Origin: an uncultured Tateyamaria sp.
GTDB lineage: Bacteria; Pseudomonadota; Alphaproteobacteria; Rhodobacterales; Rhodobacteraceae
NCBI RefSeq assembly: GCF_947503465.1
Contig: NZ_CANNDN010000001.1
Coordinates: forward strand, 1,736,001 to 1,800,000
Length of the DNA: 64,000 bases
Reading direction: 5' to 3'
Shown here in pieces: positions 38,976-56,630 of this stretch. The notes beneath the pieces were generated by a model. That model was not told the DNA's origin and searched no databases. It saw only the letters and a program-made list of their open reading frames with translations. How positions within the stretch are numbered: position 1 is the stretch's first letter; each line of letters starts with the position of its first letter. The position numbers and the translations under genes were made by a program.

Positions 38976-40745
38976 ATGGCCCCGCTTCTGGACGTGAAAG
39001 ACCTGTCGATCGGGTTTGGCAAAGCCCCGCCTGTTGTGGCGGGTGTCAATTTTTCCGTCGACAGTGGTGAAACGCTGGCCCTTGTCGGCGAAAGCGGGTC
39101 AGGCAAGACGCTGACCTGCCGGTCGGTTCTGCGCATCCTGCCCAAGACGGCGCAGCTGCGTCAGGGCGAGGTCATCTTTGGCACCGGTGCGTCGCGCAAG
39201 GATTTGCTGACCCTGCCGCATCGCCAGATCCGCGACATTCGGGGGGACCGGATTTCGATGATCTTTCAGGAGCCGATGCGATCCCTGTCGCCGTTGCACC
39301 GCATCGGCAATCAGGTGTCCGAAGTTCTGACCCTGCACCGGGACATGACCGCCGCCGAAGCCAAGCGCGACGTGCTTGCCACGTTCGAGCGTGTCGGTTT
39401 TGCCGATCCCGAGCGTGCCTTTCGCGCCTACCCGTTCGAGATGTCGGGCGGCATGCGCCAGCGCGCCATGATCGCGATGGCGATGGTGGCCAAGCCCGAT
39501 CTGCTGATCGCCGATGAACCGACGACGGCGCTGGATGTGACCACGCAGGCGCAGGTGCTGGGCCTGATGAAGGACCTGCAACGCGACACCGGCATGGCAA
39601 TGATCCTTGTCACCCATGATCTGGGTGTTGTTGCCAACATGGCCGACAGTGTCGTGGTGATGAACAAGGGCCACGTCATGGAAAGCGGACCTGCCCCTGC
39701 CGTTCTGGGAGAGCCCGGCCACGGCTATACCCAAAAGCTGTTTGCCGCCGCCCCGATGATTCCCAAGGACCCGAAACCGGTCGATCCGATACCGCAGGAG
39801 GATCTGATCCTGGAACTGAACGGCGTGTCCAAGACCTATACCGTGCGCGCCGGTGGCTGGCGGGCCAAGAAACAGGTGCATGCCTGTGTTGACGTCACCC
39901 TGAAACTGCCCCGTGGCAAGACATTGGCCGTGGTCGGTGAAAGCGGGTCGGGCAAGACGACCTGCGCGCGCATTGCGTTGGGGGCCGAGGTTCCCGACGC
40001 CGGGTCCGAGGTGCTGTTTCGTGCCGACCCGAGGGCCGATCCCGTCTGCATCAACCAGTTGAGCCGCGCCCAGAAGGTCGCCTTTCAGCGGCAGGCCCAG
40101 ATGGTGTTTCAGGACCCCTATTCGTCGCTGTCCCCGCGCATGCGCGTGCAGGAGGCGTTGACCGAGCCGATGGAAATTCACCGTATCGGCAGCAAGATGG
40201 CGCGCCGCGACAAGGCCGCCGAGATGTTGCGATGGGTCGGCCTTGATCCCGATATGCTCAAGCGGTATCCGCACGCCTTTTCCGGCGGTCAGCGCCAGCG
40301 TCTGTCCATTGCCCGCGCCCTGACACTGGACCCGGTTCTGCTGGTCTGTGACGAGCCGACATCCGCCCTGGATGTGTCGGTGCAAGAGCAGATCCTGTCC
40401 CTGCTGGAGCGCATTCGCGACGGGATGGGGTTGAGTTACCTGTTCATCAGCCACGATCTGGCCGTCGTTGCCCGGATCGCGGATGAGGTGGCGGTGATGC
40501 GGCAGGGTGTGGTGGTCGAACAGGCCCCCCCGCAGACCTTGTTTTACAATCCGCGCCACCCATATACCAAGGCCCTGATCGCGGCCCAACCGGAACCGGA
40601 TGTGCGCCGCCCCATTGATCTGGCCCAGGTGGCCCAGGGTGCGGGATCCTCCGGTTCCTGGCCGGACATGTTTCGCTTCGAGGGCGTGGATGCCCCCGAC
40701 CTCATTCAGATCGAACCCGGACACAAGGTGCGCTGCCATGTCTAG
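38976..40745 (+). CDS. Peptide-type ABC transporter, fused double ATP-binding protein
   Basis: The 589-residue protein fuses two ATPase domains of the DppD/DppF type, as in YejF/GsiA. Walker A ALVGESGSGKT occurs near 35-45 and again at about 318; each half has its signature (MSGGMRQR; FSGGQRQR) and Walker B (LLIADEPTTALD; LVCDEPTSALD). Oligopeptide-type C-terminal extensions (HPYTKALI) follow. It is the first gene of an operon with a binding protein and two permeases, and overlaps the next gene by 8 bp. Confidence 0.93.
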   Translation: MAPLLDVKDLSIGFGKAPPVVAGVNFSVDSGETLALVGESGSGKTLTCRSVLRILPKTAQLRQGEVIFGTGASRKDLLTLPHRQIRDIRGDRISMIFQEPMRSLSPLHRIGNQVSEVLTLHRDMTAAEAKRDVLATFERVGFADPERAFRAYPFEMSGGMRQRAMIAMAMVAKPDLLIADEPTTALDVTTQAQVLGLMKDLQRDTGMAMILVTHDLGVVANMADSVVVMNKGHVMESGPAPAVLGEPGHGYTQKLFAAAPMIPKDPKPVDPIPQEDLILELNGVSKTYTVRAGGWRAKKQVHACVDVTLKLPRGKTLAVVGESGSGKTTCARIALGAEVPDAGSEVLFRADPRADPVCINQLSRAQKVAFQRQAQMVFQDPYSSLSPRMRVQEALTEPMEIHRIGSKMARRDKAAEMLRWVGLDPDMLKRYPHAFSGGQRQRLSIARALTLDPVLLVCDEPTSALDVSVQEQILSLLERIRDGMGLSYLFISHDLAVVARIADEVAVMRQGVVVEQAPPQTLFYNPRHPYTKALIAAQPEPDVRRPIDLAQVAQGAGSSGSWPDMFRFEGVDAPDLIQIEPGHKVRCHV

Positions 40746-42669
40746 AGTGACCCGATTGACTGCCCTGTTCGTGGCGGGGCTGATGGCCCTGCCCGTTTTT
40801 GCCCAACCCATTGTTCAGGAAAGTGAATTCTGGGCCCCGGAGGTGAAGAAGGGCCAGATGGACGCGGCGGTTGACCGTATCCCCGATACACCGCTGGTTG
40901 TCGATCTTGAGGCCAAGGGCCGCCAGTTCGGCACCCAGGGCGGCACATTGCGCACCATGGTCACGCGCACCAAGGACGTGCGCCAGATGGTCGTGTACGG
41001 CTACGCCCGGCTGGTGGGCTATGACCATGAGTACGAGTTGCAACCCGACATCCTGCGCGATGTGGAGGTGGAGGCGGGCCGCATCTTTACCCTGCATCTG
41101 CGCCCCGGGCACCGCTGGTCCGATGGCGCGCCCTTTACCTCGGCCGATTTTCAGTACTGGTGGGATCATGTGGCCCAGAACGCGGAACTGAGCCCGAATG
41201 GCCCGCCCGAGGTCATGCGCATGGGGGACGACATCGCCACCATGACCTTTCCCGACGACGTGACCGTTGTTGTCGAATTTCCCCGCGCGAACCCGAATTT
41301 CCTGCAATCGCTGGCCCAGGCCAGCCCGCCCTTCATCTATCGCCCGGCGCATTACCTCAAGCAGTTCCATGTCGACTTCAACACCATGGAGCAGATGGAA
41401 GAGATGATCGACGCCAAGCGCGTGCGCGGCTGGGCCCCGTTGCACAACAAGCTTGATAACATGTACAAGTTCGACAACCACGAACTGCCCACCTTGCAAC
41501 CGTGGAAGCCCGCCTCGACCGGGGCGGCGATGCGGCATCTGTTCGTGCGCAACCCCTATTTCCATCGCATCGACGCGCGCGGCACGCACCTGCCCTATAT
41601 CGACGTGGTCGAGATGGACATCGTGGGTTCGGGCCTGGTCGCGGCCAAGGCGAATGCGGGCGAAAGCGACCTGCAGGCCCGCGGCCTTGATTTCCGCGAC
41701 ACATCCATCCTGAAAAAGGGCGAGGCCGATGGTGCGCCTTACCGCACCTACCTGTGGTCCAACGGGGCCGCCAGCCAGATCGCCATCTATCCCAACCTCA
41801 ACTTTGCCGATCCGGTCTGGCGCGAGGTCATGCGCGACGCCCGCTTCCGCCGCGCCCTGTCGCTGGGCATCGACCGGCGCATGATCAACCGGGCCCTCTA
41901 TTTCGGGCTGGGCAAGGAAGGCGGCATGACCGCCCTGGCCAAGAGCCCGCTGTTTGACCCCGCAAATCTGACGCAGTGGGCCATTTACGATCCCGATACC
42001 GCGAACCTGATGCTGGACCAGATGGGCCTGGACAGGCGCGATGCCTCGGGCACACGCCTGCTGCCGGATGGCCGCCCGATGGAATTCGTGATCGAGACTG
42101 CGGGCGAACGGCAAGAGGTCGAGAACGCGCTTGCCATCATCACCGATACGTGGCGGGACATCGGCATCAAGCTGATCATGCGGCCGCTGGATCGTGACAT
42201 CCTGCGCAACCGCGTTTTTTCCGGGGTGACCATGGCCTCGGTCTGGTACGGCTGGGACAACGGCATTCCCGGCCCCAACACGCCGCCCACCTATCTGGCC
42301 CCGACGGACCAGGTGTTCTTTGCCTGGCCGAAATGGGGACAGCATTACCAGACCCACGGATCGGCGGGAGAACCCATCGACATGCCCGAGGCCGAGCGCC
42401 TGATGGAGCTGAGCAAGGCCTGGCAACGCACCGATGACCGGCAGGAGCGTACCGCCATCTGGCGTGAAATGCTTGAGATTCACGCCGACAACCAGTTCGG
42501 CATCGGCATCCTGAGCGAGGCACCGCAGCCCGTCGTCGTGTCGGACCGCCTGCGCAACGTGCCGGAACAGGGCAAGTGGGCCTGGGACCCCGGCGCGCAT
42601 TTCGGCGTGCACCGGGTCGACGAATTCTTCTTCTCGGATGACGAACAGATCGCGCAGGTGCGCGAATGA
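40738..42669 (+). CDS. ABC transporter substrate-binding protein, family 5 (peptide/opine/oligosaccharide)
   Basis: This is a large 643-residue periplasmic receptor of the DppA/OppA class. A signal peptide (MSRVTRLTALFVAGLMALPVFA) starts at ATG 40738, inside the end of the ATPase gene. Family-5 landmarks include RPGHRWSDGAPFTSADFQYWW and DARFRRALSLGIDRRMIN. At over 600 residues it is longer than di- or oligopeptide receptors and closer to YejA- or AgpA-like proteins, so peptide, opine and oligosaccharide ligands are all possible. It overlaps the first permease by 4 bp. Confidence 0.92.
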   Translation: MSRVTRLTALFVAGLMALPVFAQPIVQESEFWAPEVKKGQMDAAVDRIPDTPLVVDLEAKGRQFGTQGGTLRTMVTRTKDVRQMVVYGYARLVGYDHEYELQPDILRDVEVEAGRIFTLHLRPGHRWSDGAPFTSADFQYWWDHVAQNAELSPNGPPEVMRMGDDIATMTFPDDVTVVVEFPRANPNFLQSLAQASPPFIYRPAHYLKQFHVDFNTMEQMEEMIDAKRVRGWAPLHNKLDNMYKFDNHELPTLQPWKPASTGAAMRHLFVRNPYFHRIDARGTHLPYIDVVEMDIVGSGLVAAKANAGESDLQARGLDFRDTSILKKGEADGAPYRTYLWSNGAASQIAIYPNLNFADPVWREVMRDARFRRALSLGIDRRMINRALYFGLGKEGGMTALAKSPLFDPANLTQWAIYDPDTANLMLDQMGLDRRDASGTRLLPDGRPMEFVIETAGERQEVENALAIITDTWRDIGIKLIMRPLDRDILRNRVFSGVTMASVWYGWDNGIPGPNTPPTYLAPTDQVFFAWPKWGQHYQTHGSAGEPIDMPEAERLMELSKAWQRTDDRQERTAIWREMLEIHADNQFGIGILSEAPQPVVVSDRLRNVPEQGKWAWDPGAHFGVHRVDEFFFSDDEQIAQVRE

Positions 42670-43694
42670 TGTTCATCCGCTATGCAGCCTACCGGCTGCT
42701 GACGATGATCCTGACCTTGATCGTGGTGTCGATGCTGATCTTCATCATCATCAACCTGCCGCCGGGTGACTACCTGTCGAACCAGATTGCAGAACTGCGC
42801 GCCACCGGTCAGGCCGAAGGCGTCGCCAAGGCCGAGTTCCTGCGGACCGAATACGCCCTCGACCGACCCTTGTGGCAGCAATACCTGATCTGGGTCGGCG
42901 TTGCCCCCGGCCCGCAGGGGTTTTCCGGCCTGTTGCAGGGCGATTTCGGATGGTCCTTTGAATTTGACGCCCCTGTTGCCGATATTGTGGGCGACGCGCT
43001 GTGGCTGACGGTTCTGGTGAACCTGGCGGCGGTCCTGTTTGTCTACATGGTCGCCCTGCCCCTTGGCGTGCTGGCCGCGGCCCGGTCGGCCACATGGGTT
43101 GACTACACCACGGCCTTTATCGGCTATCTGGGCCTTGCAACGCCCAACTTCCTTTTGGCGTTGATGCTGTTCTACTACGGCCACAAGTATCTGGGCCTGC
43201 CCATCGGCGGGCTGATGGCGCCCGAGTTCGAGGGGGAGCCCATGAGCCTTGCCAAGGTGCAAAGTGTTCTGGTCCACCTGATCGTGCCGACCTTTGTCAT
43301 CGGCACATCCGGTGCGGCCGCCATGATGCAGCGCCTGCGCGCCAACATGCTGGACGAATTGTCAAAACCCTACGTCGAGACGGGTATGGCCAAGGGATTG
43401 GCCCCTTCGCGGCTGCTGACCAAGTATCCGCTGCGCATGGCGTTCAACCCGTTTGTGGCCGATATCGGCAACCTGCTGCCCGCCATGGTGTCGGGGTCGG
43501 TCCTGGTGTCGGTGGTGCTGGGCTTGCAAACCATCGGGCCTGCGCTTTTGACGGCGCTCAAGTCGCAGGATCAGTTCCTGGCCGCCTTCGTTCTGATGTT
43601 CGTGGCGCTGCTGACGCTGATCGGCACGATGGTCTCGGACCTCTTGCTGGTCCTGCTGGATCCGCGCATCCGCTACGGCGCACGGGAAGGATAA
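42666..43694 (+). CDS. Peptide-type ABC transporter permease 1 (DppB family)
   Basis: The 342-residue membrane protein starts with a typical DppB first helix (AAYRLLTMILTLIVVSMLIFIIINLPPGD). The transport-ATPase contact loop is visible around ETGMAKGLAPSRLLTKYPLR, where the EAA motif lies. It starts in an ATGA overlap with the binding protein gene and is followed 4 bp later by the second permease. Confidence 0.92.
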   Translation: MMFIRYAAYRLLTMILTLIVVSMLIFIIINLPPGDYLSNQIAELRATGQAEGVAKAEFLRTEYALDRPLWQQYLIWVGVAPGPQGFSGLLQGDFGWSFEFDAPVADIVGDALWLTVLVNLAAVLFVYMVALPLGVLAAARSATWVDYTTAFIGYLGLATPNFLLALMLFYYGHKYLGLPIGGLMAPEFEGEPMSLAKVQSVLVHLIVPTFVIGTSGAAAMMQRLRANMLDELSKPYVETGMAKGLAPSRLLTKYPLRMAFNPFVADIGNLLPAMVSGSVLVSVVLGLQTIGPALLTALKSQDQFLAAFVLMFVALLTLIGTMVSDLLLVLLDPRIRYGAREG

Positions 43695-43698
43695 GACC

Positions 43699-44853
43699 AT
43701 GAGCACCCTGCCCGACGGCCGCTATATCGATGACGCGCCCTATGACCCGAATGTGGACCTGTCCGCGCCCGAGCGGTCGGACATGGATGCGCCCAACTGG
43801 ATTCTGGTCTGGCGCAAGTTCCGCAAGCACAGGCTGGGCCTGATCTCGGGCATCTTCCTGCTGTTGGCGTATATGGCGATCCCATTCGCCGGGTTCATCT
43901 CGCCCTATACGCCCAATGAACGCAGCGCCGATCATCTGTACCACCCGCCCCAGGCCATCAAGTTCTGGCACGAGGGCGATTTCATCGGTCCGTTTGTCTA
44001 TCCGACAACCGGGCAGGCCGATCTGGAGAACTTTCAGTGGGTGTACGAAACCGACACCTCCCGCCCGATGCCGTTGCAGTTCTTTTGTGAGCGGACGGAA
44101 TACAAGCTGTTCTTTCTGATCCCTGCCGACCGCCACCTGTTCTGCGCGCCCGAAGGGGCGACGGTGTTCATCTTTGGGTCGGACCGCCTGGGGCGTGACG
44201 TGTTTTCACGCATTTCCTATGGCGCGCAACTGTCGCTGACCGTGGGCCTGATCGGCATCACCGTGTCGTTTGTTCTTGGTATCGGGTTTGGCGCCATTGC
44301 CGGTTACTTTGGCGGTTGGGTTGACTGGGTGGTCAACCGCGCCATCGAAATCCTGCGGTCGTTGCCGGAACTGCCCCTTTGGCTGGCGCTGTCCGCTGCG
44401 GTGCCATCGAATTGGGGGCCGGTGTCCGTCTTTTTCATCATCTCCATCATCCTCGGCCTTCTGGATTGGCCGGGCCTGGCGCGGGCGGTCCGAAGTAAGT
44501 TCCTCTCGTTGAGAGAGGAGGAATATGTGCGCGCGGCAGAGATGATGGGGGCAAGACCGTCCCGCGTGATCCGGCGGCATTTGTTGCCGAATTTCATGTC
44601 ACACCTGATTGCCTCGGCCACATTGTCGATCCCCGCGATGATCCTGGGCGAGACGGCGCTGTCGTTCCTGGGCCTGGGCCTGCGGGCGCCTGCGGTGTCC
44701 TGGGGCGTGATGCTGAACGACGCGCAGAACCTGGCATCCATCGAGATCTATCCGTGGACTGCCATCCCGATGCTGCCGATCATCATCGTGGTGCTGGCGT
44801 TCAACTTTCTGGGCGATGGCCTGCGCGATAGTCTGGATCCCTACACGTCCTGA
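43699..44853 (+). CDS. Peptide-type ABC transporter permease 2 (DppC family) with an inserted periplasmic segment
   Basis: The 384-residue permease has the DppC layout: a polar N-terminus, a first helix (GLISGIFLLLAYMAIPFAGF), and a C-terminal core with the EAA loop (YVRAAEMMGARPSRVIRRHLLPN). About 110 residues between the first helix and the core form a periplasmic insert with two cysteines (FFCERTEY; LFCAPEGA) not present in ordinary DppC. FGSDRLGRDVFSRI begins the core. It ends 6 bp before the convergent helicase gene. Confidence 0.92.
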   Translation: MSTLPDGRYIDDAPYDPNVDLSAPERSDMDAPNWILVWRKFRKHRLGLISGIFLLLAYMAIPFAGFISPYTPNERSADHLYHPPQAIKFWHEGDFIGPFVYPTTGQADLENFQWVYETDTSRPMPLQFFCERTEYKLFFLIPADRHLFCAPEGATVFIFGSDRLGRDVFSRISYGAQLSLTVGLIGITVSFVLGIGFGAIAGYFGGWVDWVVNRAIEILRSLPELPLWLALSAAVPSNWGPVSVFFIISIILGLLDWPGLARAVRSKFLSLREEEYVRAAEMMGARPSRVIRRHLLPNFMSHLIASATLSIPAMILGETALSFLGLGLRAPAVSWGVMLNDAQNLASIEIYPWTAIPMLPIIIVVLAFNFLGDGLRDSLDPYTS

Positions 44854-46888: not shown

Positions 46889-49222
46889 TTATCGGTCGTC
46901 CGCGAAGTCCGCCGCGTCTTCCAGCATGTCTTCCTCCAGCGAGGCCTGCGCCGCCGCGGTGATCGCCTTGCGGTCCTCATCCGTCAAATCCTGGGCTTTC
47001 TGACCGTCTGCAAGGCGCACCGTCACCTCGCGGTGAGCGAATTTGATGCCCTCGCGTTCAAAGAGCGCGCGTATCTCCTCGTAGACCTTCTTGCGCACCA
47101 GCCACTGATCCCCCGGCTTGGTCATGAACTTGACCCGGATGATCATGGCGCTGTCCTGCATTTCGATCACGCCCTGCGACTTCAGGGGCTGGATGAAGTT
47201 TTCACCGATGACGGGATCATCCAGCAGGTCCACACCCAAGGTCTTGATCAGTTTGCGCACCTTTTCCACATCCGTGTCGTAGGTCACGCGCAGGGGCAGC
47301 TTCATGATGACCCAGTCGCGGGAATAGTTGGTCAGCACCTGGATCTCGCCGAAGGGGATCGTGTGCAGCGCGCCCAGGTGGTGGCGCAGCTGAAAGCTGC
47401 GGACGCTGATGTTTTCCACCGTCCCCTTCACGCCGCCCACATCGATGTATTCACCCTTGCGGAACGCATCATCGAACAGGAAGAAGGCCCCGGAAAAGAT
47501 GTCGCGCACCAGCGATTGCGAGCCAAAGCCAACGGCCACACCTACGATGCCCGCACCGGCAAAGAGCGGTCCCACATTGATCCCCAATTGCATCAGCATG
47601 ATCAGAAGCATCGTCACCACGATGACAATCAGGACAAAATTACGAAAGAGCGGCAGCAGCGTCGCAAGGCGCGAGGCCGAGGACCCACCACCTTCATCAC
47701 CCAGTTCGACCTCTTGCATGTCGCCCTGTTCTTCGCGGATCTTGTCGTCGATCCAGATCCGGAACGTGTTGTAGATGATGTATCCGATGAACAGGATCAC
47801 GATGATGTCGAGCAGACGATCGGTCCAGCTTTCGCCCATCACCGGGGTTTGCGGGCTCCAGATCGTGACAAATGCATAGATCCCCGCGACAAAGGCAAGG
47901 ATGCCCGCAACCCGTTGCGCCAGACCTTCGAATGTTGTGATCCGTGGACCGGAATGGACCTGCGGGGGCTCCGGGTCGGGGTCCAGTTCGGCATCGACCA
48001 CCACGTTGTGCTCGCGCACCAGGCGCGCGCGGGCAAAGCTGCGTTCGATGAAGAAATTGATCACGCCGTAGACAACGATGATTGTGGTCAGAATGCCCCA
48101 CGCGGCGGCCAGCAGCGGCACACCCAACGGATCGCCAATGACCAGGTGGTAGGTCTGTTCGCCCCACGCAAACAGGAAGTACAGCACCGCCAGAGGCGCC
48201 CAGACCCGCGCCAGGCTGCGCAGCACCCAGGTCGCGTCGGCGGCGGATTTGCCATTCAGGATCGCACCGGTGATCGCGCGACCGTTCACCGTGACCAGAA
48301 CGATGTTGAGGAACATCACGAACAGGCTGAGCAGCGAAAAGAGGAACACATAGACTTCGTTGTTCAGGCCCAGCTCTTCGATCCAGACGCCAAACAGGAT
48401 GGCAAAGAAGCTGAACGCCGCCACACCCGACAGCCACAGATGCAACCGCCGCGCATCCCGGTCATTCAGCAGCGGGATGCGATATTGCGGCAGGTATGGT
48501 GACAGGATCATCCGCCACACCCCGGCCACGACACGTGCCAGGAAATAGCCGATATTGATCAGCGTGACGGTGAATTGCATGGCGGAGTCTTCGAGCGGGC
48601 CGAAGATGAGAAAACCCAGCACATAGGCCACCGCCATCGACACCAGCGTGCCCACCACCCCAAGAACAAAGCGAAACACCAAAAAGGGCATCTTTTCGAC
48701 ATAGCCTTCCGGGTTCTGCTGAATGCGGGCCACCACAAATCGCTTGGCGATCCGCTTGCCGAAGATCTGGGATTCAAACACCATCCCGGCCGCAAACAGT
48801 GCCAGACTGATGAACAAGGCCTGCACATAGGCAAAGATCGTGCCGTCGGGGCTGGTGGCCCGCAGGATGTAGATCACCTCGTTAAAGGCCGTGGGCAGGT
48901 TCAAGAGTCGGTCCACCAGCGCCGTGCGGAACGCCACCGCATCGTCCTGAATGGCCATCAGCGTTGTTCCACTGCCGGGCTCTGATTGCGGTGCAGACGA
49001 TGACCCGGCTTGTGTGATCACCCGGCCATCGCTGTCGATCACAATGACACTGACACCGTTTTGCGCAGCGGATTCCACCGCCTGGGACAGGTCGTTTTCA
49101 CTGGTGGTCGCCCCGCCGCCGGGCAGCAGGCTGCCCAATCCCTGGGCGTGCACCGCCCCTGGCAGACAAAGCGCACAGCAGAGGAAAAGCGCCGCCAGAC
49201 GGTGAAATAGGGAATGTGTCAT
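46889..49222 (-). CDS. Mechanosensitive ion channel, MscS family, large form
   Basis: This is a large 777-residue inner-membrane channel opened by membrane tension, protecting against hypo-osmotic shock. It starts with a signal peptide (HRLAALFLCCALCLPGAVHA), then a periplasmic segment and many hydrophobic helices. The MscS pore and beta-domain are at the C-terminal third: AGAGIVGVAVGFGSQSLVRDIFSG followed by GEYIDVGGVKGTVENIS. ATG 49222 is chosen over a GTG at 49240. It lies 79 bp upstream of the helicase gene on the same strand. Confidence 0.92.
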   Translation of the reverse strand: MTHSLFHRLAALFLCCALCLPGAVHAQGLGSLLPGGGATTSENDLSQAVESAAQNGVSVIVIDSDGRVITQAGSSSAPQSEPGSGTTLMAIQDDAVAFRTALVDRLLNLPTAFNEVIYILRATSPDGTIFAYVQALFISLALFAAGMVFESQIFGKRIAKRFVVARIQQNPEGYVEKMPFLVFRFVLGVVGTLVSMAVAYVLGFLIFGPLEDSAMQFTVTLINIGYFLARVVAGVWRMILSPYLPQYRIPLLNDRDARRLHLWLSGVAAFSFFAILFGVWIEELGLNNEVYVFLFSLLSLFVMFLNIVLVTVNGRAITGAILNGKSAADATWVLRSLARVWAPLAVLYFLFAWGEQTYHLVIGDPLGVPLLAAAWGILTTIIVVYGVINFFIERSFARARLVREHNVVVDAELDPDPEPPQVHSGPRITTFEGLAQRVAGILAFVAGIYAFVTIWSPQTPVMGESWTDRLLDIIVILFIGYIIYNTFRIWIDDKIREEQGDMQEVELGDEGGGSSASRLATLLPLFRNFVLIVIVVTMLLIMLMQLGINVGPLFAGAGIVGVAVGFGSQSLVRDIFSGAFFLFDDAFRKGEYIDVGGVKGTVENISVRSFQLRHHLGALHTIPFGEIQVLTNYSRDWVIMKLPLRVTYDTDVEKVRKLIKTLGVDLLDDPVIGENFIQPLKSQGVIEMQDSAMIIRVKFMTKPGDQWLVRKKVYEEIRALFEREGIKFAHREVTVRLADGQKAQDLTDEDRKAITAAAQASLEEDMLEDAADFADDR

Positions 49223-49410
49223 AATGCGAAACCGCAGCACTGTCAGAGTCAGATGACGCTACGCCACCCGGCCCGGCATGACAATTGTAACCACCTGGAA
49301 TTGAATGCGCGCGATCAACGGCTTTCGCGTGCCTTTTACAAACTGCCCGAATTTTGCGATAGCGGTAACACGTGCCATGGGTTTTGCACGGAAACGCGGC
49401 TCTTGTGAGG

Positions 49411-49506: not shown

Positions 49507-50730
49507 ATGGGCAAAAACGCACCTTCTTCGCCAATGTCGCTGGGCGCACGCCCCGGCCGTGTCGTGCTGTACAGCCATGACACATTCGGCCTGGGCCATC
49601 TGCGCCGCAGCCGCGCCCTGGCATCTGCCTTGACCCAATCGGGTGTGGCCGAAAGCGCCATCATCCTGACCGGCAGCCCCGTGGCGGGCCGCTTTACCTT
49701 TCCGCCCGCCGTGGACCATGTGCGCCTGCCCGGCGTCAAGAAGCTGGCCGATGGCACCTATGTCAGTCAGACCAGCGGCATGGATATCGACGCCACCACG
49801 TCGTTGCGGTCCGCCCTGATCGCCTCGACCATCGCGCACTACGAGCCGGATTTGCTGATCGTGGACAAGGAGCCCACCGGCTTTCGCGGCGAATTGTCCG
49901 AGACCTTGCAGCGCTTGCGTGCCCGCACTCAGACCCGGCTGGTTCTGGGCCTGCGCGATGTGCTGGACGAACCCGATGTGTTGGCCGCCGAGTGGGCCCG
50001 CAAGGGTGCGGTCGAAGCGACGGAGGCCTTTTACGACGAGATCTGGGTCTATGGGCCGCGGTCCGTCTATGACCCGACGCAGGGCTTGCCCCTGTCCGAT
50101 CAGGCGCGCGACCGCACCGTCTGGACCGGCTATTTGCGCCGCAGCATCGTGGATCCTGCAGATGTGCCCGACACGCCCTATATCCTGGTGACCCCGGGCG
50201 GGGGCGGTGATGGGGCGGCCATGGTTGATCTGGTTCTGTCCGCATACGAGCATGATCCCGATCTTGGCCCGCATGCCGTGCTGGTCTACGGCCCGTTCCT
50301 GTCGGGCGAAGTGCGCGAGAAGTTCGAGACGCGCGTCGACGCCCTTGGCGGCCGCGTCACATCCACCGGCTTTGACAGCAAGATCGAGCCCCTGTTCGCC
50401 GCGGCCCAGGGTGTGATCTGCATGGGTGGCTACAACACGTTTTGCGAGCTGTTGTCGTTTGACCAGCGCGCCGTGATTGTCCCCCGGACCGAACCACGTC
50501 TGGAGCAGTGGATTCGCGCCCACCGGGCCGAGGAACTGGGATTGGTCCGCAATCTGGACCGGTTCCGGGACGGGCTGACAACCGAAGCCATGGTGGACGC
50601 CATTCGCGCCCTGCCGCATCAGCAGCGCCCGTCCGAAGCCGGTGCGGATGGGTTGCTGGACGGGCTGGACGTGGTCATTTCCCGCGCCCGCGCCCTGATG
50701 CAGCAACCGCTGACCGACGCCGCAGAATGA
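49507..50730 (+). CDS. Glycosyltransferase, GT-B fold, MurG-like (COG4671 type)
   Basis: The 407-residue protein has the N-terminal GT-B donor/acceptor glycine loop SHDTFGLGHLRRSRALASAL and a C-terminal UDP-sugar-type region (GVICMGGYNTFCELLSFDQRAVIVPRT). It would transfer a sugar from a nucleotide-activated donor to an unknown acceptor. It is the first gene of a seven-gene overlapping cluster, ends in an ATGA overlap with the next glycosyltransferase, and is a paralogue of the gene at 53607. Confidence 0.82.
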   Translation: MGKNAPSSPMSLGARPGRVVLYSHDTFGLGHLRRSRALASALTQSGVAESAIILTGSPVAGRFTFPPAVDHVRLPGVKKLADGTYVSQTSGMDIDATTSLRSALIASTIAHYEPDLLIVDKEPTGFRGELSETLQRLRARTQTRLVLGLRDVLDEPDVLAAEWARKGAVEATEAFYDEIWVYGPRSVYDPTQGLPLSDQARDRTVWTGYLRRSIVDPADVPDTPYILVTPGGGGDGAAMVDLVLSAYEHDPDLGPHAVLVYGPFLSGEVREKFETRVDALGGRVTSTGFDSKIEPLFAAAQGVICMGGYNTFCELLSFDQRAVIVPRTEPRLEQWIRAHRAEELGLVRNLDRFRDGLTTEAMVDAIRALPHQQRPSEAGADGLLDGLDVVISRARALMQQPLTDAAE

Positions 50731-51968
50731 CGTCCACGCCTCCTCGGCTTGCCATTGCGGTCAAGGGCTGGCCCCGTTTGTCCGAGACGTTCATCGCCCA
50801 GGAACTGGTGGCTTTGGAAGAGGCCGGTTTGGATTTCGCCATCTGGTCCCTGCGCCATCCCACGGACACCAAGACCCATCCCCTGCATGACCGCCTGGCC
50901 GCGCAGGTGCACTACTTGCCCGAGTACCTGCGCGATGAACCCGTGCGTGTCGTCCGGGCCGTGCTGTCCACGATGGGCGGGGCCGGGTTCTGGCGGGCGA
51001 TGGCGCAGTTCCTGCGCGATCTGGCCCGCGACCGGACCCGCAACCGGGTGCGCCGTTTCGGGCAGGCCTGTGTGATGGCCCGTGAATTGCCCGCAGGCAC
51101 CACCGCGCTTTACGCTCATTTCCTGCACACGCCGTCCTCGGTCGCGCGTTATGCGGCGATGATACGCGGTCTACCGTGGTCTTTTTCCGCCCATGCCAAG
51201 GATATCTGGACCTCGCCCGAGTGGGAGTTGCGTGAAAAGCTGGATGCCGCGACGGCGGGGGCCGCCTTTGGCGCGACCTGCACCGCATTCGGGGCGACGC
51301 ACCTGAACGATCTGGCGCAGGACACGCCGGTCGACCTTGTCTATCACGGATTGGACCTTGGGCGTTTTCCCCCTGCCCCCGACCGCGCGCCGCGCGGACC
51401 CGCGGACCCGTTCCAAATGGTGTCGGTGGGCAGGCTGGTGGAAAAGAAAGGCTTTGACCGGCTGCTTGAGGCGCTGGCACTGCTGCCGCTGGACCTGGAT
51501 TGGCACTGGACCCATATCGGCGGCGGCGCGTTGAAACGGCAGATGCAGGACCATGCCGCCCGACTGAGCGTGTCGGACCGGATCACCTGGCGCGGGGCCT
51601 GCGACCAGCCCGAGGTGATCGAGGCGATGCGCGCCGCGCACCTGTTTGTTCTGCCCAGCCGCATCGCGGCAGATGGGGACCGCGACGGCCTGCCGAACGT
51701 GTTGATGGAAGCCGCAAGTCAGAAGCTGCCGATCCTCAGCACGCCGGTGTCCGCCATCCCCGAATTCATCGACGACGGCGTGCACGGGATGCTGCGCGAC
51801 GATGCGCCAGAGCACCTGGCCCAAGCGATGATCGACATTGCACGCGACCCCGCCCTTGGCCCGCGTCTGGCCGAGGCCGCCCACACAAGACTGCATGCCG
51901 ACTTCACGATGCAGCCCGGCATCACCCATCTGGCGAAACGCCTGCGCGGCATCATGGGGCCCGCGTGA
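50727..51968 (+). CDS. Glycosyltransferase family 4, WcaL-like
   Basis: The 413-residue GT-B enzyme has an N-terminus of the WcaL/AmsK type (GWPRLSETFIAQELVALEEAG) and a GT4 C-terminal domain: SVGRLVEKKGFDRLLEALA and LPSRIAADGDRDGLPNVLMEAASQKLP with the E-x7-E-like pair. WcaL-type enzymes act in extracellular polysaccharide assembly. ATG 50727 overlaps the previous stop. It ends in a GTGA overlap with the third glycosyltransferase. Confidence 0.88.
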   Translation: MTSTPPRLAIAVKGWPRLSETFIAQELVALEEAGLDFAIWSLRHPTDTKTHPLHDRLAAQVHYLPEYLRDEPVRVVRAVLSTMGGAGFWRAMAQFLRDLARDRTRNRVRRFGQACVMARELPAGTTALYAHFLHTPSSVARYAAMIRGLPWSFSAHAKDIWTSPEWELREKLDAATAGAAFGATCTAFGATHLNDLAQDTPVDLVYHGLDLGRFPPAPDRAPRGPADPFQMVSVGRLVEKKGFDRLLEALALLPLDLDWHWTHIGGGALKRQMQDHAARLSVSDRITWRGACDQPEVIEAMRAAHLFVLPSRIAADGDRDGLPNVLMEAASQKLPILSTPVSAIPEFIDDGVHGMLRDDAPEHLAQAMIDIARDPALGPRLAEAAHTRLHADFTMQPGITHLAKRLRGIMGPA

Positions 51969-53032
51969 CTGTCGCGTTCTACGCCCCCCTCAAGGCCCCC
52001 GACCACCCGGTCCCTTCGGGGGACCGCACCATGGCGCGTGCGTTGATCGCCGCCCTTGAACATGCCGGATACACGGCCTGTATCGCGTCGGACCTGCGCA
52101 TCTATGATGGCGTCGGCGACAGGCAGGTCCAGGATGACCTGATGCGCCGGTCTCAGGCAGAGGTCGACCGCATCCTGGCGCGCCCGGACAGCAAGAACTG
52201 GCGCTGCTGGCTGACATATCACAACTATTACAAAGGCCCGGACCTGATCGGGCCAGCGGTCTGCAACGCCTTGGGCCTTCCCTACCTTCAGGTGGAAAGC
52301 ACCCGCGCGGCCAAGCGTCTGACCGGCCCCTGGGCCCGCTTTGCCGAAGCCGCCGAAGCGGCCAGCGATCAGGCCCATACCATCCTTTTCGTGACCCACC
52401 GCGATGCCGAAACCCTGCGCCGCGACGCACCGGACCAACAGGTCCTGACCCATCTGCGCCCGTTCCTGCAGCGTGCTGACCTGCCCGAACAGTCCGACCA
52501 CAGCGGTGCCATGCTGAGCGTGGGGATGATGCGCCCCGGAGACAAGCTCGCGTCCTACCAGTTGATCGCAGAGACCCTTGCCCGCCTTGATCCGGATATC
52601 GCGTGGCACCTTGATATTGCCGGCGACGGGCCAGCGCAGGCCGGGGTGACGCGGCTGATGGCCCCTTTCGGTGACCGGGTCCGGCTGCTGGGCGCGTTGA
52701 CATCTGACGCGCTGAACGAACGCTATGCCACGGCACGGCTGTTGTTCTGGCCAGGTGTGAACGAGGCGTTTGGCTATGCCTATCTCGAGGCGCAAGCGGC
52801 GGGCCTGCCCGTTGTGGCGCAGGACAGGCCGGGGGTGCGCGATGTGGTGTCGGGCATTCAGCCCGCCGTGCCCGATGGAGCGGACGCCATGGCCGCGCGC
52901 CTGACTGCGTATCTGCAAGATCCTGCTTTGGTCGAAACAGCGGGGGCGGAAGCGCGCGACATGGTCAGTGCGCAGCACCTTTTGCCAACCGCTGCCACGG
53001 TCCTGCGTCAGGCCATCGAGGCCGCGACATGA
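51965..53032 (+). CDS. Glycosyltransferase family 4 protein
   Basis: The 355-residue protein is a retaining GT-B enzyme: a short N-terminal half (MTVAFYAPLKAPDHPVPSGD; alternate start GTG 51965) and a C-terminal GT4 domain with SVGMMRPGDKLASYQLI, then WPGVNEAFGYAYLEAQAAGLPVVAQ. The GTG start overlaps the preceding stop by 4 bp and the stop overlaps the phosphatase start. Donor and acceptor are unknown. Confidence 0.82.
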   Translation: MTVAFYAPLKAPDHPVPSGDRTMARALIAALEHAGYTACIASDLRIYDGVGDRQVQDDLMRRSQAEVDRILARPDSKNWRCWLTYHNYYKGPDLIGPAVCNALGLPYLQVESTRAAKRLTGPWARFAEAAEAASDQAHTILFVTHRDAETLRRDAPDQQVLTHLRPFLQRADLPEQSDHSGAMLSVGMMRPGDKLASYQLIAETLARLDPDIAWHLDIAGDGPAQAGVTRLMAPFGDRVRLLGALTSDALNERYATARLLFWPGVNEAFGYAYLEAQAAGLPVVAQDRPGVRDVVSGIQPAVPDGADAMAARLTAYLQDPALVETAGAEARDMVSAQHLLPTAATVLRQAIEAAT

Positions 53033-53607
53033 TCCGGCTGGCCCTTTTGCGTCATGGTCACACGTCATGGAACCGCACCGGGCGGTTGCAGGGGCGCAGC
53101 GACATTCCGCTGGACGAGGACGCGTATGATGCGTTGTCCAAATTGCGTCTTCCCGCCGCTTGGAACGGCGCGGATCTGGTGTCGAGCCCGCTGCGCCGCG
53201 CCGTTGAGACCGCCCAGCTGATCAGCGGCCGCGCGCCCGACATCGAACCTGCGTTGATCGAGATGAACTGGGGCGCTTGGGAAGGTCAGCATGGCGCGAC
53301 ACTCGCCGCCGATGACACCAGCGGGTTCCGCCACATCGAGGATTGGGGCTGGGCGTATTGCCCGCCCCAAGGCGAACCCCCCGCCGCCCTGCGCGACCGG
53401 TTGCAACCCTGGGTGACCGGCCTGCGCCGGGACACGGTTGCTGTCTGCCACATCGGGACGATGCGCGTGCTGCTTGCCATGGCGACAGGCTGGAATTTTG
53501 ACGGCCCCGCCCCCTTTCAGATCAAGCGCAACCGCCTGTTTGTACTGCACATCAAGGAGTCCTCGCTGACCCTGGACCCGGCACCGGTGCGGTTGGAGCT
53601 GCGCTGA
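53029..53607 (+). CDS. Histidine phosphatase family protein
   Basis: This 192-residue protein has the RHG nucleophile motif (8-10, LLRHGHTSWN), an acidic helper in EMNWGAWEG and a second catalytic histidine in VCHIGTMR, as in PhoE/CobC-type phosphatases. In this cluster it could dephosphorylate a sugar phosphate or a lipid/glycan intermediate. It is coupled by overlap to glycosyltransferases on both sides, which makes a role in the glycan pathway likely rather than housekeeping. Confidence 0.87.
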   Translation: MIRLALLRHGHTSWNRTGRLQGRSDIPLDEDAYDALSKLRLPAAWNGADLVSSPLRRAVETAQLISGRAPDIEPALIEMNWGAWEGQHGATLAADDTSGFRHIEDWGWAYCPPQGEPPAALRDRLQPWVTGLRRDTVAVCHIGTMRVLLAMATGWNFDGPAPFQIKRNRLFVLHIKESSLTLDPAPVRLELR

Positions 53608-54743
53608 TGCGGGTTGTGATTGTCGTCACACATCTGCTGGGCACGGGGCATCTGGCCCGCGCGCTGACACTGGGCCGTGCCTTTGCCGCCGCGGGGGATG
53701 GCGTAACCATCCTGAGCGGGGGTGGCCCGGTGCCGCATTTCGATACGGATGGCATGACTTTTGTCCAGCTGCCGCCCCTGCGATCAAACGGTGTGGACTT
53801 TTCCAACCTGTTAATCGGGGACGGAACGACGGCAGACGCGCCCTATCTTGACCGGCGGGCGGCGGAGTTGATCCGGCACGCCATGGCCGCTGATCCTGAC
53901 GTTCTGATCACCGAATTGTTCCCCTTTGGGCGTCGGTCCCTCAAGCGGGAATTTCAGGCGCTGTTGGAAGCCATGTCTGCCCGGCCGACGCCGCCCTTGG
54001 TGGTATCCTCGGTCCGGGACATTCTGGCGCCGCCGTCGAAACCGGCCAAGGTAGCCTTTGCAGACGCTCTTGTCGCCGGTTTCTACGACCGTGTTCTGGT
54101 GCATTCGGATGCAGAGGTTGTGCCCCTGGACGCCAGCTGGCCCGTGTCCGACATGCTGCGTGCCAAGTTGGAGTACACCGGGTTTGTGGCCCCTGCCCCC
54201 CCGACACCTGCCACGAGGCGAGGCGACGACATCCTTGTCAGCGCCGGGGGGGGATCGGTTGGCGATGCGGTGTTTGACGCGGCCTGCGCGGCGGCGTCCC
54301 ATGACCCGTCCCGACCCTGGCGGTTGCTTGTGGGTGGGGCGCAGGCGCGACGGGACAGGTATGCCCGACAGGCGCCTGCGCATGTGACGGTTGAAGGCCC
54401 GCGCCCTGATTTCCGCGACCTGCTGGCCCGCGCGCACGCGTCGGTGTCGATGTGCGGGTACAACACGGCGCTGGATGTCTTGCAGACCGGCGTGCCCGCC
54501 GTGCTGGTCCCCTTTGACGACGGGGGCGAGGTGGAACAGGGGTTGCGTGCCCGCGCCCTCGCAACGCTGCCCGGTATTGCCGTATTGAAGCAGTCGGACC
54601 TGTCCGGCGCGGCGCTGGCCGATGCCGTGGCCGCGTTGGCACAGGCCCCCCGCCGCGCGCCACGCGTCGCTGGAATGGACGGCGCCGCCCGCACGGTGGA
54701 CATTGTGCATCGCCTGCGCGAAGGGAGCGGCGATGCAGATTGA
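53607..54743 (+). CDS. Glycosyltransferase, MurG-like (COG4671 type)
   Basis: The 378-residue protein shares its layout with the first gene of the cluster: GTGHLARALTLGRAFAAAGD at the N-terminus and SMCGYNTALDVLQTGVPAVLVPF near the C-terminus. It begins at a one-base overlap with the phosphatase stop (TGATG) and ends overlapping the deacetylase-like gene by 11 bp. As a second enzyme of this type in the same cluster it may add another residue of the same glycan. Confidence 0.8.
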   Translation: MRVVIVVTHLLGTGHLARALTLGRAFAAAGDGVTILSGGGPVPHFDTDGMTFVQLPPLRSNGVDFSNLLIGDGTTADAPYLDRRAAELIRHAMAADPDVLITELFPFGRRSLKREFQALLEAMSARPTPPLVVSSVRDILAPPSKPAKVAFADALVAGFYDRVLVHSDAEVVPLDASWPVSDMLRAKLEYTGFVAPAPPTPATRRGDDILVSAGGGSVGDAVFDAACAAASHDPSRPWRLLVGGAQARRDRYARQAPAHVTVEGPRPDFRDLLARAHASVSMCGYNTALDVLQTGVPAVLVPFDDGGEVEQGLRARALATLPGIAVLKQSDLSGAALADAVAALAQAPRRAPRVAGMDGAARTVDIVHRLREGSGDAD

Positions 54744-55476
54744 CTGGACCCCCTTGCGGACCGAATTGGCCGCCTGCCGACGCGACGCGGTGGTTGTGCC
54801 GTTCTGGTGGCGCGACGATGATGCCATCGCGCCGACAGAACCGCTGGACCATCTTGAGACGATCGCGCAGCGGGTTGGACTGTCCGTGCATATGGCCGTG
54901 ATCCCGGCCCACGCCACGCCTGCCCTTGCCGACCGTATGGACGGGCAGCGGTTGATCCCGCTGGTACATGGCTGGGCCCATCATGATCACAGCGGGCCGC
55001 GCGAAAAGAAGAACGAGTTTTTGACCGAACGGCCCGGTCTGGCGCAGGACAGCGCCCGCGCGCTGGACCGCATGTTGGCCCTGTTTGGTGCGGGCGTGCG
55101 GCCGATGTTCGTGCCCCCCTGGAACCGCATACAGCCCGCGCTGCTGTCTGGTCTGGCGGACCAGGGATACACCGCTGTATCGACGTTCGGCCCACGTGCC
55201 CGTGCCGAGGCGGCACCGGGCCTTGCGCAGATCAACACCCATATCGACCCGATCTGGTGGAAGGGCACCCGCGACCTGGTGGAGCCGGATGCAGTGATCG
55301 CGACGGCCTGTGCGCATCTGTCCGCACGGCGACACGGAGCCGAGGACGCCACGGAACCGTTCGGGCTTTTGACACACCACCTGGTTCACACCCCTGCGAT
55401 CTGGGCTTTTACAACAGGTTTTCTACACGAAATGCTGTCTGGCGGCGCACGGCCGTGGACGATGGAGACGACATAA
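54733..55476 (+). CDS. Polysaccharide deacetylase-like protein
   Basis: This 247-residue protein has the layout of a carbohydrate esterase 4 enzyme with divergent motifs: an acidic cluster WWRDDDA (28-30), histidines in LVHGWAHHDHSG (His79, His83) and FVPPWNRI. It may remove acetyl groups from a glycan or a sugar intermediate. There is no signal peptide, so it would be cytoplasmic unless exported otherwise. It starts 11 bp before the previous gene ends and lies 1 bp before the methyltransferase gene. Confidence 0.72.
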   Translation: MQIDWTPLRTELAACRRDAVVVPFWWRDDDAIAPTEPLDHLETIAQRVGLSVHMAVIPAHATPALADRMDGQRLIPLVHGWAHHDHSGPREKKNEFLTERPGLAQDSARALDRMLALFGAGVRPMFVPPWNRIQPALLSGLADQGYTAVSTFGPRARAEAAPGLAQINTHIDPIWWKGTRDLVEPDAVIATACAHLSARRHGAEDATEPFGLLTHHLVHTPAIWAFTTGFLHEMLSGGARPWTMETT

Positions 55477-55477
55477 G

Positions 55478-55957
55478 ATGAGCAGACTGGAATCCATGCG
55501 ACGCCGATTGACCGCACAGATCGACGGGATCAACTGGGCGGCGGCCAAGGTGGCCGACCTGGACGGCGATGTCCTTGAGATGGGATTGGGGAACGGGCGG
55601 ACCTATGATCACCTGCGCCAGGAATTGCCCGACCGGCGTATCTGGGTCATCGACCGCATCCTGAAATGCCACCCAAGCTGCGTGCCGCCCGAACAGGATT
55701 TTCTCGAAGGCGAGGCGGAACCGATGCTGCAGAGGATGGCTGCAGCCAACCGCAGGATCATTCTGGCCCATTACGACTTTGGCTTTGGCATCAAGGAGAA
55801 GGACGTTGAAGAGGGCAAGCGGCTGAGCCCTCTGATCGCGGCGGTGATGCAACCCGGCGGCCTGATCCTGTCGCAACAACCGCTGGTCGGGTTCGACCAG
55901 ATCACCGGGCCGGATACGATCGCACCGGATCGGTATCTCTTCTACCGAAAGGTGTAG
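55478..55957 (+). CDS. Small SAM-dependent methyltransferase (Methyltransf_17-like), paralogue 2
   Basis: This 159-residue protein has the glycine loop VLEMGLGNGRTYDHLRQ (33-48) and an acidic ribose contact region (WVIDRI). It is similar in motif and length to the protein at 38336-38833. It is the last gene of the glycan locus, starting 1 bp after the deacetylase-like gene stops, so it may methylate a sugar or an acceptor. The target cannot be read from sequence. Confidence 0.75.
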   Translation: MSRLESMRRRLTAQIDGINWAAAKVADLDGDVLEMGLGNGRTYDHLRQELPDRRIWVIDRILKCHPSCVPPEQDFLEGEAEPMLQRMAAANRRIILAHYDFGFGIKEKDVEEGKRLSPLIAAVMQPGGLILSQQPLVGFDQITGPDTIAPDRYLFYRKV

Positions 55958-56063: not shown

Positions 56064-56630
56064 ATGATGAAGATGTTGAAGACGGCCGCTTTGGCCGCCA
56101 CGGCGCTTGTGCTGGCAACAGCCACCTTCGCCGCCCCCCTGAAACTGACCCCAGCCAATCCGCAACCTTCGGGTTTGAAACCCGGATTGGCTGTCAAATA
56201 CGCCTACCCGCCAGATGTCAAAAGCCTGAACCAGGCCAACCGCGCCCTGAAACGGGCCACGGCCGGGCCGGCGCTCAAGGGCCTCGACTATCGCGATACG
56301 TCGGACGGGGACAAAACGCTGACATCCAAGCAAGCGCACCACGTGGTGGCGGGCATCTCCGGCTATGTCAAATTCGATGCCGCCGGCACCTATAACATCG
56401 ACTTTCTGACCAATGACGGCCTGGATGCCAAGGTGGGTGGCCAGACGGTCGGGTATTTCGACGGGCGGCAAAAATGCTTTGAAACGCGTGCCGTACAGGT
56501 CGAGGTGCCGCAAGCGGGCTGGTACCCGGTCGACATCACTTACTTCCAGCGTGTGGGCACGGCATGCCTGCATATGCGTGCGGGCCAGGGTGCACCCGAC
56601 TGGATGCCCAACTCGGCCTTCGGGCACTAG
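56064..56630 (+). CDS. Secreted PA14-domain-like protein
   Basis: This 188-residue protein starts with a signal peptide (MMKMLKTAALAATALVLATATFA). The mature part has the pattern of a PA14-type carbohydrate-binding beta-barrel: GISGYVKFDAAGTYNIDFLTNDGLDAKVGG, then WYPVDITYFQRVG. Two cysteines (KCFETR, ACLHM) are near the C-terminus. It follows the glycan locus after a 106-bp gap and may bind its product; that link is inference. ATG 56067 is an alternative with better spacing from GGGAG. Confidence 0.72.
   Translation: MMKMLKTAALAATALVLATATFAAPLKLTPANPQPSGLKPGLAVKYAYPPDVKSLNQANRALKRATAGPALKGLDYRDTSDGDKTLTSKQAHHVVAGISGYVKFDAAGTYNIDFLTNDGLDAKVGGQTVGYFDGRQKCFETRAVQVEVPQAGWYPVDITYFQRVGTACLHMRAGQGAPDWMPNSAFGH

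Follow-up and report, generated by a model that had tools for sequence, protein, structure and literature searches.

The stretch of DNA studied here, called the window below, is 64,000 nucleotides long and comes from an uncultured Tateyamaria sp. of the family Rhodobacteraceae (contig NZ_CANNDN010000001.1, positions 1,736,001 to 1,800,000). Seven of its genes, labeled g1 to g7, occupy positions 49507-55957, all on the plus strand, with successive spacings of -4, -4, -4, -1, -11 and +1 bases. An earlier note on this DNA had described such a set of overlapping or nearly touching genes: two MurG-like and two GT4 glycosyltransferases, a histidine phosphatase, a deacetylase and a methyltransferase. 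The open reading frames are indeed there, and the families are recovered by Pfam or, for g6, by the fold of a structural model. We propose, with a confidence evenly divided between yes and no, that a conserved system of alphaproteobacteria makes an acidic polysaccharide, either secreted or placed on the cell surface, and that these genes would be its biosynthetic core.

The genes are listed below. Counts refer to 80 named loci: a scan of named genome contigs with a g1 alignment (A1) gave at least 588 matches, and these are the top 80.

49507-50730, plus strand: g1, MurG-like (GT28-C) glycosyltransferase, 407 amino acids; Pfam PF04101, 24.9 bits
50727-51968, plus strand: g2, GT4 glycosyltransferase, 413 amino acids; GT4 Pfam family; co-occurs with g1 in 80/80 named loci
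51965-53032, plus strand: g3, GT4 glycosyltransferase, 355 amino acids, GTG start; Pfam PF13692, 64.3 bits; 76/80 named loci
53029-53607, plus strand: g4, histidine phosphatase of branch 1, 192 amino acids; His_Phos_1; 75/80 named loci
53607-54743, plus strand: g5, second MurG/GT1-fold glycosyltransferase, 378 amino acids; Pfam 32.2 bits; AlphaFold2 model
54733-55476, plus strand: g6, predicted cytoplasmic deacetylase of NodB/CE4 fold, 247 amino acids; AlphaFold2 fold and invariant motifs
55478-55957, plus strand: g7, Methyltransf_17 methyltransferase dependent on S-adenosylmethionine, 159 amino acids; PF12692, 235.3 bits; after g6 in 57/80 named loci

The Glyco_tran_28_C matches of g1 and g5 are weak, their scores being read against a Pfam cut-off of 22. 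The best Pfam scores of the GT4 enzymes are 92.1 bits for g2 and 64.3 bits for g3; the nearest NCBIfam models of both are of the EpsE or WcaL type of GT4 or similar, the nearest to g2 being EPS_EpsE with 137 bits, below its cut-off of 400. No signal peptide or transmembrane helix is evident in g1 to g7: by a simple hydropathy measure, no 19-residue segment exceeds 1.6. This agrees with the previous statement that the deacetylase lacks a signal peptide, and all seven enzymes look cytoplasmic.

Conservation of the operon

Seventy of the 80 named loci show the order g1-g2-g3-g4-g5-g6, and in 57 it is followed by g7. These loci come from Tateyamaria, Sulfitobacter, Roseobacter, Ruegeria, Phaeobacter, Leisingera, Shimia, Amylibacter and other genera, mostly of the Roseobacter group. 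Nine of the remaining ten are partial sequences (3.6-13.5 kb), and the tenth, L161, has no g4 to g6 after g3. Because the order of g1 to g6 is conserved over many genera, chance is excluded, and what the loci share is a conserved pathway. The earlier note had read the genes as one pathway and proposed a search for conserved gene order; that search, now made, upholds the reading.

A second sample consists of 20 class loci, chosen with a preference for long contigs from the g1 positives of the class; three of them (L192, L203 and L206) are without several genes inside the stretch read. In the named loci, counts of flanking genes vary with the length of sequence covered at each locus. The histidine phosphatase, whose presence in such a set had been called unusual, is a steady member, found in 75/80 named and 17/20 class loci, and therefore belongs to the pathway.

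Among sampled genomes, g1 is present in 50 of 198 in the family, in 127 of 385 in the class, and in 24 of 299 in the phylum, 22 of these last being inside the class and 2 outside.

Folds and motifs of the enzymes

The phosphatase g4 matches His_Phos_1 with 121.8 bits (Pfam cut-off 21.7); against the equivalog of the alpha-ribazole phosphatase CobC it scores 88 bits, below the cut-off of 162.9, and falls outside that equivalog. Similarly, g5 scores 28.1 bits against the murG equivalog, below the cut-off of 250.25, but the fold is shared: its AlphaFold2 model (pLDDT 93.2) has the GT-B fold of MurG/GT1 enzymes, with Z between 23.7 and 26.2 among the matches listed, and resembles sterol glucosyltransferase (Z 25.8) and MurG (Z 25.4).

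No Pfam or NCBIfam family, Polysacc_deac_1 and DUF2334 included, matches g6 at E 0.1. DUF2334 is found in its relatives: the Sinorhizobium meliloti protein scores 21.6, below the cut-off of 26, and the relative in L241 is above both cut-offs. The AlphaFold2 model of g6 (pLDDT 95.6) has a NodB-like deacetylase fold. Its closest structures among the matches listed are 3qbu (Z 17.2, root-mean-square deviation 3.2, 215 residues aligned) and 3rxz (Z 17.1); the best Foldseek rows include CE4 enzymes, and the listed VIA-align matches, with Z from 17.2 to 13.5, are mostly deacetylases, others including PuuE allantoinase and GH57. In 42 sequences the motifs WWRDDD, H79-x3-H83 and H215-H216 do not vary, nor does the Asp pair D28-D30. 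By analogy, the Asp pair, the metal ligands His-x3-His and the distal His would be the catalytic residues of a CE4-type enzyme, and the modelled g6 looks like a putative NodB/CE4-type carbohydrate deacetylase.

Two fusions tie deacetylation to the residue that g5 would add: the Roseobacter-group locus L176 has g5 and g6 in one open reading frame of 642 codons, and the Nitrospirota plasmid L220 encodes a GT28-DUF2334 fusion protein. The last gene, g7, is a relative of structure 3iht (phmmer, 80 bits).

Genes around the operon

Seven further features of the window matter for the discussion.

38345-38827, minus strand: g7 paralogue (Methyltransf_17); PF12692, 223.8 bits
38976-40745, plus strand: importer ATPase with two ATP-binding cassette (ABC) domains, YejF/DppDF-like; PF00005, 180.5 bits, 2 stretches
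40735-42669, plus strand: importer solute-binding protein, SBP_bac_5; PF00496, 157.5 bits
42666-43694, plus strand: importer permease; BPD_transp_1, 86.5 bits
43699-44853, plus strand: importer permease; BPD_transp_1, 115.6 bits, with OppC_N; 67/80 named loci
46889-49240, minus strand: MscS-like channel, 783 amino acids, divergent from g1; Pfam MS_channel domains
56064-56630, plus strand: PA14-domain protein with a signal-peptide-like start, downstream of g7

In the window, a DEAD-box helicase gene and the MscS gene lie between the importer (38976-44853) and g1. The MscS-like gene, a steady neighbor in the Roseobacter group, is found in 74/80 named loci and in 0/20 class loci; in the latter it is instead ABCx, a protein that resembles ABC exporters but whose ATPase domain is degenerate, that stands divergent from g1 in 12/20. 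The importer recurs with the operon in both samples: relatives of its ATPase, of the oligopeptide type, are found in 64/80 named and 17/20 class loci, and its binding protein in 66/80 and 13/20. Within the family, the binding protein is present in 42 of 198 genomes, every one positive for g1. The g7 paralogue, which is probably part of the wider system, is found together with the importer permease in 13/80 named loci, and 29 of the 36 family genomes having any PF12692 match have two. As for the PA14-domain gene, it follows g7 in 18/18 short loci of the same genus in which g6 and g7 are complete (L005-L013, L015, L016, L018, L020-L025), and is matched in 2/80 named loci only.

Variants of this arrangement are carried by plasmids. 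Azospirillum lipoferum plasmid AZO_p4 (L213) has, on a single strand, a methyltransferase, a fusion of ABCx with a cyclic-nucleotide-binding domain, four importer genes and g1 to g6. Sulfitobacter plasmid pDSM110093_c (L221) has the importer, MscS, a nucleotide-sugar dehydrogenase, g1 to g6 and a fused ABCx, and the megaplasmid of Ruegeria sp. TM1040 has the importer, MscS and g1 to g7. Rhizobiaceae plasmids bear a shorter version: dehydrogenase, importer, g1, two further glycosyltransferases, ABCx and a separate cyclic-nucleotide-binding protein. In this rhizobial version, an adenylate/guanylate cyclase gene lies near the importer on Sinorhizobium and Rhizobium plasmids (L215-L217); S. meliloti strain R28 has the cyclase and a lyase too, and R. 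leguminosarum the cyclase.

The earlier note had stated that the locus contains no flippase, polymerase or exporter. Locally this stands: no Wzx/Wzy, Wzm/Wzt or waa gene was recognised among the scanned locus genes, the rest of the genome not having been searched for Wzx/Wzy. For the genome as a whole it does not, ABC-exporter-like genes being present elsewhere. The further step, from a missing exporter to a small glycan or metabolite, is not supported: ABCx adjoins g1 in those 12 class loci and this genome has two genes of its family, and the lyases of some related loci, together with the importer protein related to a pectin-binding protein, fit a polymer better.

These data also bear on whether the genes could serve to modify or extend lipopolysaccharide or O-antigen; in that case g6 and g4 would trim a sugar of the core or the linker. 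The models nearest to g2 and g3 speak for it, GT4 enzymes of the EpsE and WcaL types being found in exopolysaccharide and related clusters. However, the unit moves as a block, also on plasmids, with its own importer, and the genes typical of such pathways went unrecognised, as just said; we hold this explanation to be very improbable.

A possible ligand for the importer

Among solved structures, those nearest to the binding protein are PDB 5ipw (274.6 bits) and SPH1118 (191.7 bits). SPH1118 is reported to be a pectin-binding protein that serves pectin chemotaxis and assimilation (PMC7055323, PMC9314435) and contacts galacturonate oligomers via Arg57, Arg438, Arg466, Arg496 and Trp594, among others (PMC9314435). 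Aligned to it, the binding protein of the window has R459, R487 and W617 as counterparts of Arg438, Arg466 and Trp594. Both R459 and R487 are Arg in 63/63 named-locus binding proteins compared. Outside that set, three class proteins and seven plasmid proteins passed the length and coverage filter; the Azospirillum protein has Lys at the position of R459. The conservation of R459 and R487 speaks for an acidic sugar as candidate ligand in the Roseobacter group.

One could then imagine that importer and lyases scavenge foreign acidic glycans, algal or plant, and that g1 to g7 convert the oligosaccharides to a storage or signal compound. The known role of SPH1118 in the use of pectin (PMC7055323, PMC9314435) is consistent with this, as are the listed hosts, many of which come from plants, soil or sea. 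But four glycosyltransferases, a nucleotide-sugar dehydrogenase and an exporter-like protein indicate synthesis and outward transport, and there is no catabolic enzyme among g1 to g7: scavenging seems to us quite improbable.

Which sugar is in the chain

A nucleotide-sugar dehydrogenase is encoded 24-270 bases upstream of g1 in 19/80 named loci, where a match to one or the other of two queries was enough to be counted. Typing of ten of these 19 placed every one nearest to TviB, the UDP-GlcNAc (uridine diphosphate N-acetylglucosamine) C6-dehydrogenase, with 462-503 bits, under the cut-off of 592; with TuaD, a UDP-glucose dehydrogenase, they score 83-112. The dehydrogenase of the Sulfitobacter plasmid behaves alike (TviB 460 bits, TuaD 80). 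The genome of the window has one clear dehydrogenase, on another contig, also nearest to TviB (522 bits), and a second place that passes the Pfam cut-off only with its neighbors in frame, at 28.7 bits. In all, TviB is the best model for 12/12 roseobacter-type dehydrogenases typed, at 460-522 bits, every one of them under the cut-off. For the dehydrogenase of S. meliloti, the nearest models are that of the general family and those of the UDP-ManNAc type, and its scores stay below every equivalog cut-off; Shinella has such a dehydrogenase plus a nearby TuaD-like gene (510 bits, cut-off 700).

Since the roseobacter-type dehydrogenases are nearest to TviB and not to TuaD, the sugar would more likely be an N-acetylated amino-uronic acid than glucuronic acid itself. 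A UDP-glucose dehydrogenase, which would give the latter, was considered and dropped, NCBIfam favoring the TviB-like amino-sugar enzyme.

Lyases that act on acidic polysaccharides are found in some relatives of the locus: a PF14099 lyase stands beside the S. meliloti R28 and NGR234 loci, and a heparinase II/III-like lyase is present in L220 and L241, with a homologous stretch in L242. The single PF14099 match of the window genome (L240:3601-4410, C7) is on another contig, where its neighbors resemble, by eye, fusA, rpsG and rpsL.

The exporter-like protein ABCx

In the 20 class loci, 12 have ABCx beside g1, 14 have a cyclic-nucleotide-binding gene, which usually accompanies ABCx, and 12 a PF12692-type gene. 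In the genome of the window, two genes outside the window, C1:2364476-2367511 and C1:1309147-1312161, encode ABCx fused to a cyclic-nucleotide-binding domain; the match of the second overruns a stop near its end, where a 980-residue open reading frame closes. In a tree, the first copy clusters with the in-locus Sulfitobacter copies (support 92/80, 57% identity), and the second branches one fork deeper. The nearest copy is 476 kb from g1. For 19 genomes of our choice the distance was tabulated: in 11 a copy lies at most 45 kb from g1, and in two none is on the same contig.

Among the 198 family genomes, ABCx is found in 39, a count that may miss some since four candidates were scored per genome, and PF12692 in 36 (G144 being below the cut-off), all within the 50 g1 positives. 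The co-occurrence of ABCx, the importer protein and PF12692 with g1 gives Fisher values below 1e-27, which are descriptive only, as they ignore ancestry and the genomes are not independent.

An ABC_membrane domain is recognised in both copies of the window genome (73.9 and 63.7 bits); the nearest NCBIfam model of the membrane domain is MsbA, with 124 bits (cut-off 602). The ATPase domain is another matter. At E 0.001, Pfam does not recognise it in one copy of this genome or in the Sulfitobacter copy, and recognises it weakly in the other. An alignment of 25 of 26 ABCx sequences (L215, 342 amino acids as read, was omitted) contains no Walker A GK[ST], the best being GKE or GKD, with no GK in Roseobacter copies; LSGGQ is found in 0/25; and the Walker B aspartate is lost in 22/25, being retained in L110, L111 and L202. 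Five ordinary ABC exporters in the same alignment keep Walker A, Walker B and the signature (LSGGQ, LSGGE or LSNGQ). Ordinary ATPases align with the L091 ABCx only at about residues 347-472 and 765-880, so a stretch of some 300 residues interrupts the ATPase domain. The family as a whole (L110, L111, L123, L125, L221 and 20 others) has this degenerate motor, the insertion of some 300 residues, and a cyclic-nucleotide-binding domain either in the same protein or in a neighboring one. The motif GEIA...R-T/N-A-T is kept in the free-standing cyclic-nucleotide domains and partial in the fused Roseobacter ones.

Two candidates were set aside here: an ordinary ATP-driven ABC transporter as the exporter, the motor motifs of ABCx being degenerate, and a partnership of the L111 ABCx with adjacent TamA/TamB-like genes, seen by eye, such genes being absent beside the other copies examined.

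A rival reading is that the operon attaches a short oligosaccharide to a membrane lipid and that ABCx flips the resulting glycolipid, the importer being an unrelated neighbor. The resemblance of the ABCx membrane domain to MsbA and the folds described above are compatible with it: MurG/GT1-fold enzymes often glycosylate lipids, the model of g5 resembles sterol glucosyltransferase and MurG, and g6 matches ArnD, a lipid-linked sugar deformylase (Z 15.4); moreover, no polymerase was recognised among the scanned locus genes. This explanation is rather unlikely in our estimation: it leaves unaccounted for the lyases of related loci, the steady association of the importer and its relationship to SPH1118.

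Related systems

The closest relative is a sister locus, GT28-GT4-GT4-ABC-APH kinases, found inside and outside the class (L219, L220, L241, L242 and L078-L082), for which we found no published name or description. Its first genes are homologous to g1 and g2, at about 31-38% identity, and an ABC exporter is encoded as well. Parts resembling g5 and g6 occur in L220, where they are fused, and in L241, and some members have an AlgE-like protein or a heparinase-type lyase. It differs in its exporter, whose Walker A is intact and whose signature motif is present in the four aligned (L219, L078, L081 and L082), in its APH kinases, in the Alginate_exp protein of L219 and L220, and in giving no match for cyclic-nucleotide binding. 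The member on Escherichia coli plasmid p1RM9088 (L219) reads GT28-GT4-GT4-ABC-phosphotransferases-Alginate_exp-dehydrogenase; the Nitrospirota form, L220, bears the lyase.

Two capsule systems overlap with ours in parts, not in the full set. The Vi capsule locus consists of tviBCDE-vexABCDE. Like it, some of our loci have a TviB-like dehydrogenase, here beside g1, with GT4 enzymes and an ABC-type protein; unlike it, no TviC, TviD or Vex gene was recognised in them, the transporter is distinct and degenerate, and deacetylase, phosphatase and importer come in addition. In group 2 (ABC-dependent) capsules, cytoplasmic glycosyltransferases build a chain that an ABC-type protein moves, as we propose here, but the ATPase domain of ABCx is degenerate, and the protein comes with a cyclic-nucleotide-binding domain or partner.

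In S. meliloti, a cluster of pSymB at about 837 kb of NC_003078 contains, by the annotation of strain R28, g1, a GT4, a g5-like gene, ABCx, a cyclic-nucleotide-binding protein, the importer and the dehydrogenase; strain 1021 has the same gene as R28 at this cluster. It differs from the operon of the window in its additional cyclase and PF14099 lyase, in the deacetylase and one GT4 standing apart, and in having no phosphatase within the stretch read. We found no description of the g1-g7 locus in the open-licence literature. A link with the capsule receptor of the Rhodobacter capsulatus gene-transfer agent was considered and abandoned, one literature search giving no tie to the locus.

The proposed cycle

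Starting from what is observed, namely gene content, order, co-occurrence, folds and motifs, we infer sugars, substrates, order of steps, direction of transport and re-uptake as follows. The four cytoplasmic glycosyltransferases (g1, g2, g3 and g5) would use nucleotide sugars to build a chain; these would probably include an N-acetylated amino-uronic acid provided by the TviB-like dehydrogenase. The residue added by g5 would lose its acyl group, probably an N-acetyl, to g6 in the cytoplasm before export, as the two fusions and the fold suggest. By their families, g4 may dephosphorylate the glycan or a sugar intermediate, and g7 may methylate an acceptor. The finished or lipid-linked chain would exit through ABCx or under its control; this protein has a membrane domain like that of MsbA, an ATPase domain that is degenerate, and a cyclic-nucleotide-binding domain that is fused to it or encoded next to it. 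The importer (38976-44853) would recover oligosaccharides released from the polymer by lyases. The polysaccharide, judged from the sequences, probably contains aminouronate and is probably taken up again. That operon, importer and ABCx form one complete cycle under second-messenger control, in which many alphaproteobacteria make, release and retake an acidic aminouronate polymer via a motor-less ABC-fold transporter gated by a cyclic nucleotide, is a bolder claim, and we think it unlikely in this full form.

Several observations weigh against the proposal. The fold of g6 is also shared by enzymes of other substrates, such as PuuE allantoinase (Z 16.4). The dehydrogenase adjoins g1 in only 19/80 named loci, and its queries matched 0/20 class loci, which lowers the uronate reading; lyase queries matched none of the 80 named or 20 class loci, and AlgE-type queries were unmatched in alphaproteobacterial loci, other outer-membrane proteins not having been searched for. 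In the binding protein of the window, Arg57 of SPH1118 is opposite a gap and Arg496 opposite Pro; elsewhere, R459 is replaced by Ser in four rhizobial plasmid proteins and L077, and by Gly or Asp in all three class proteins, R487 also being absent from two of these three. Co-occurrence inside one family may partly reflect one clade, and no ABCx was matched in 11 of the 50 family genomes that have g1; five of these 11 carry the sister system instead (G078, G108, G115, G146 and G147). Finally, ATP-driven export by ABCx is doubtful because its ATPase domain is degenerate: instead of moving the glycan, the protein may act as a sensor or scaffold, the energy coming from another source.

If the proposal is true, a large share of Alphaproteobacteria, 127 of the 385 sampled genomes of the class, would carry a surface-glycan pathway for which we found no description; marine roseobacters and the model symbiont Sinorhizobium meliloti would be among the carriers. 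The pathway would join a fixed enzyme set, an importer of the sugar type and an exporter-like protein whose ATPase is degenerate. Three things would become open to test in model strains: the polymer made, an ABC protein working without the usual motor motifs, and the control of glycan export by cyclic nucleotides. A novelty of category would be possible only if ABCx truly functions without ATP.

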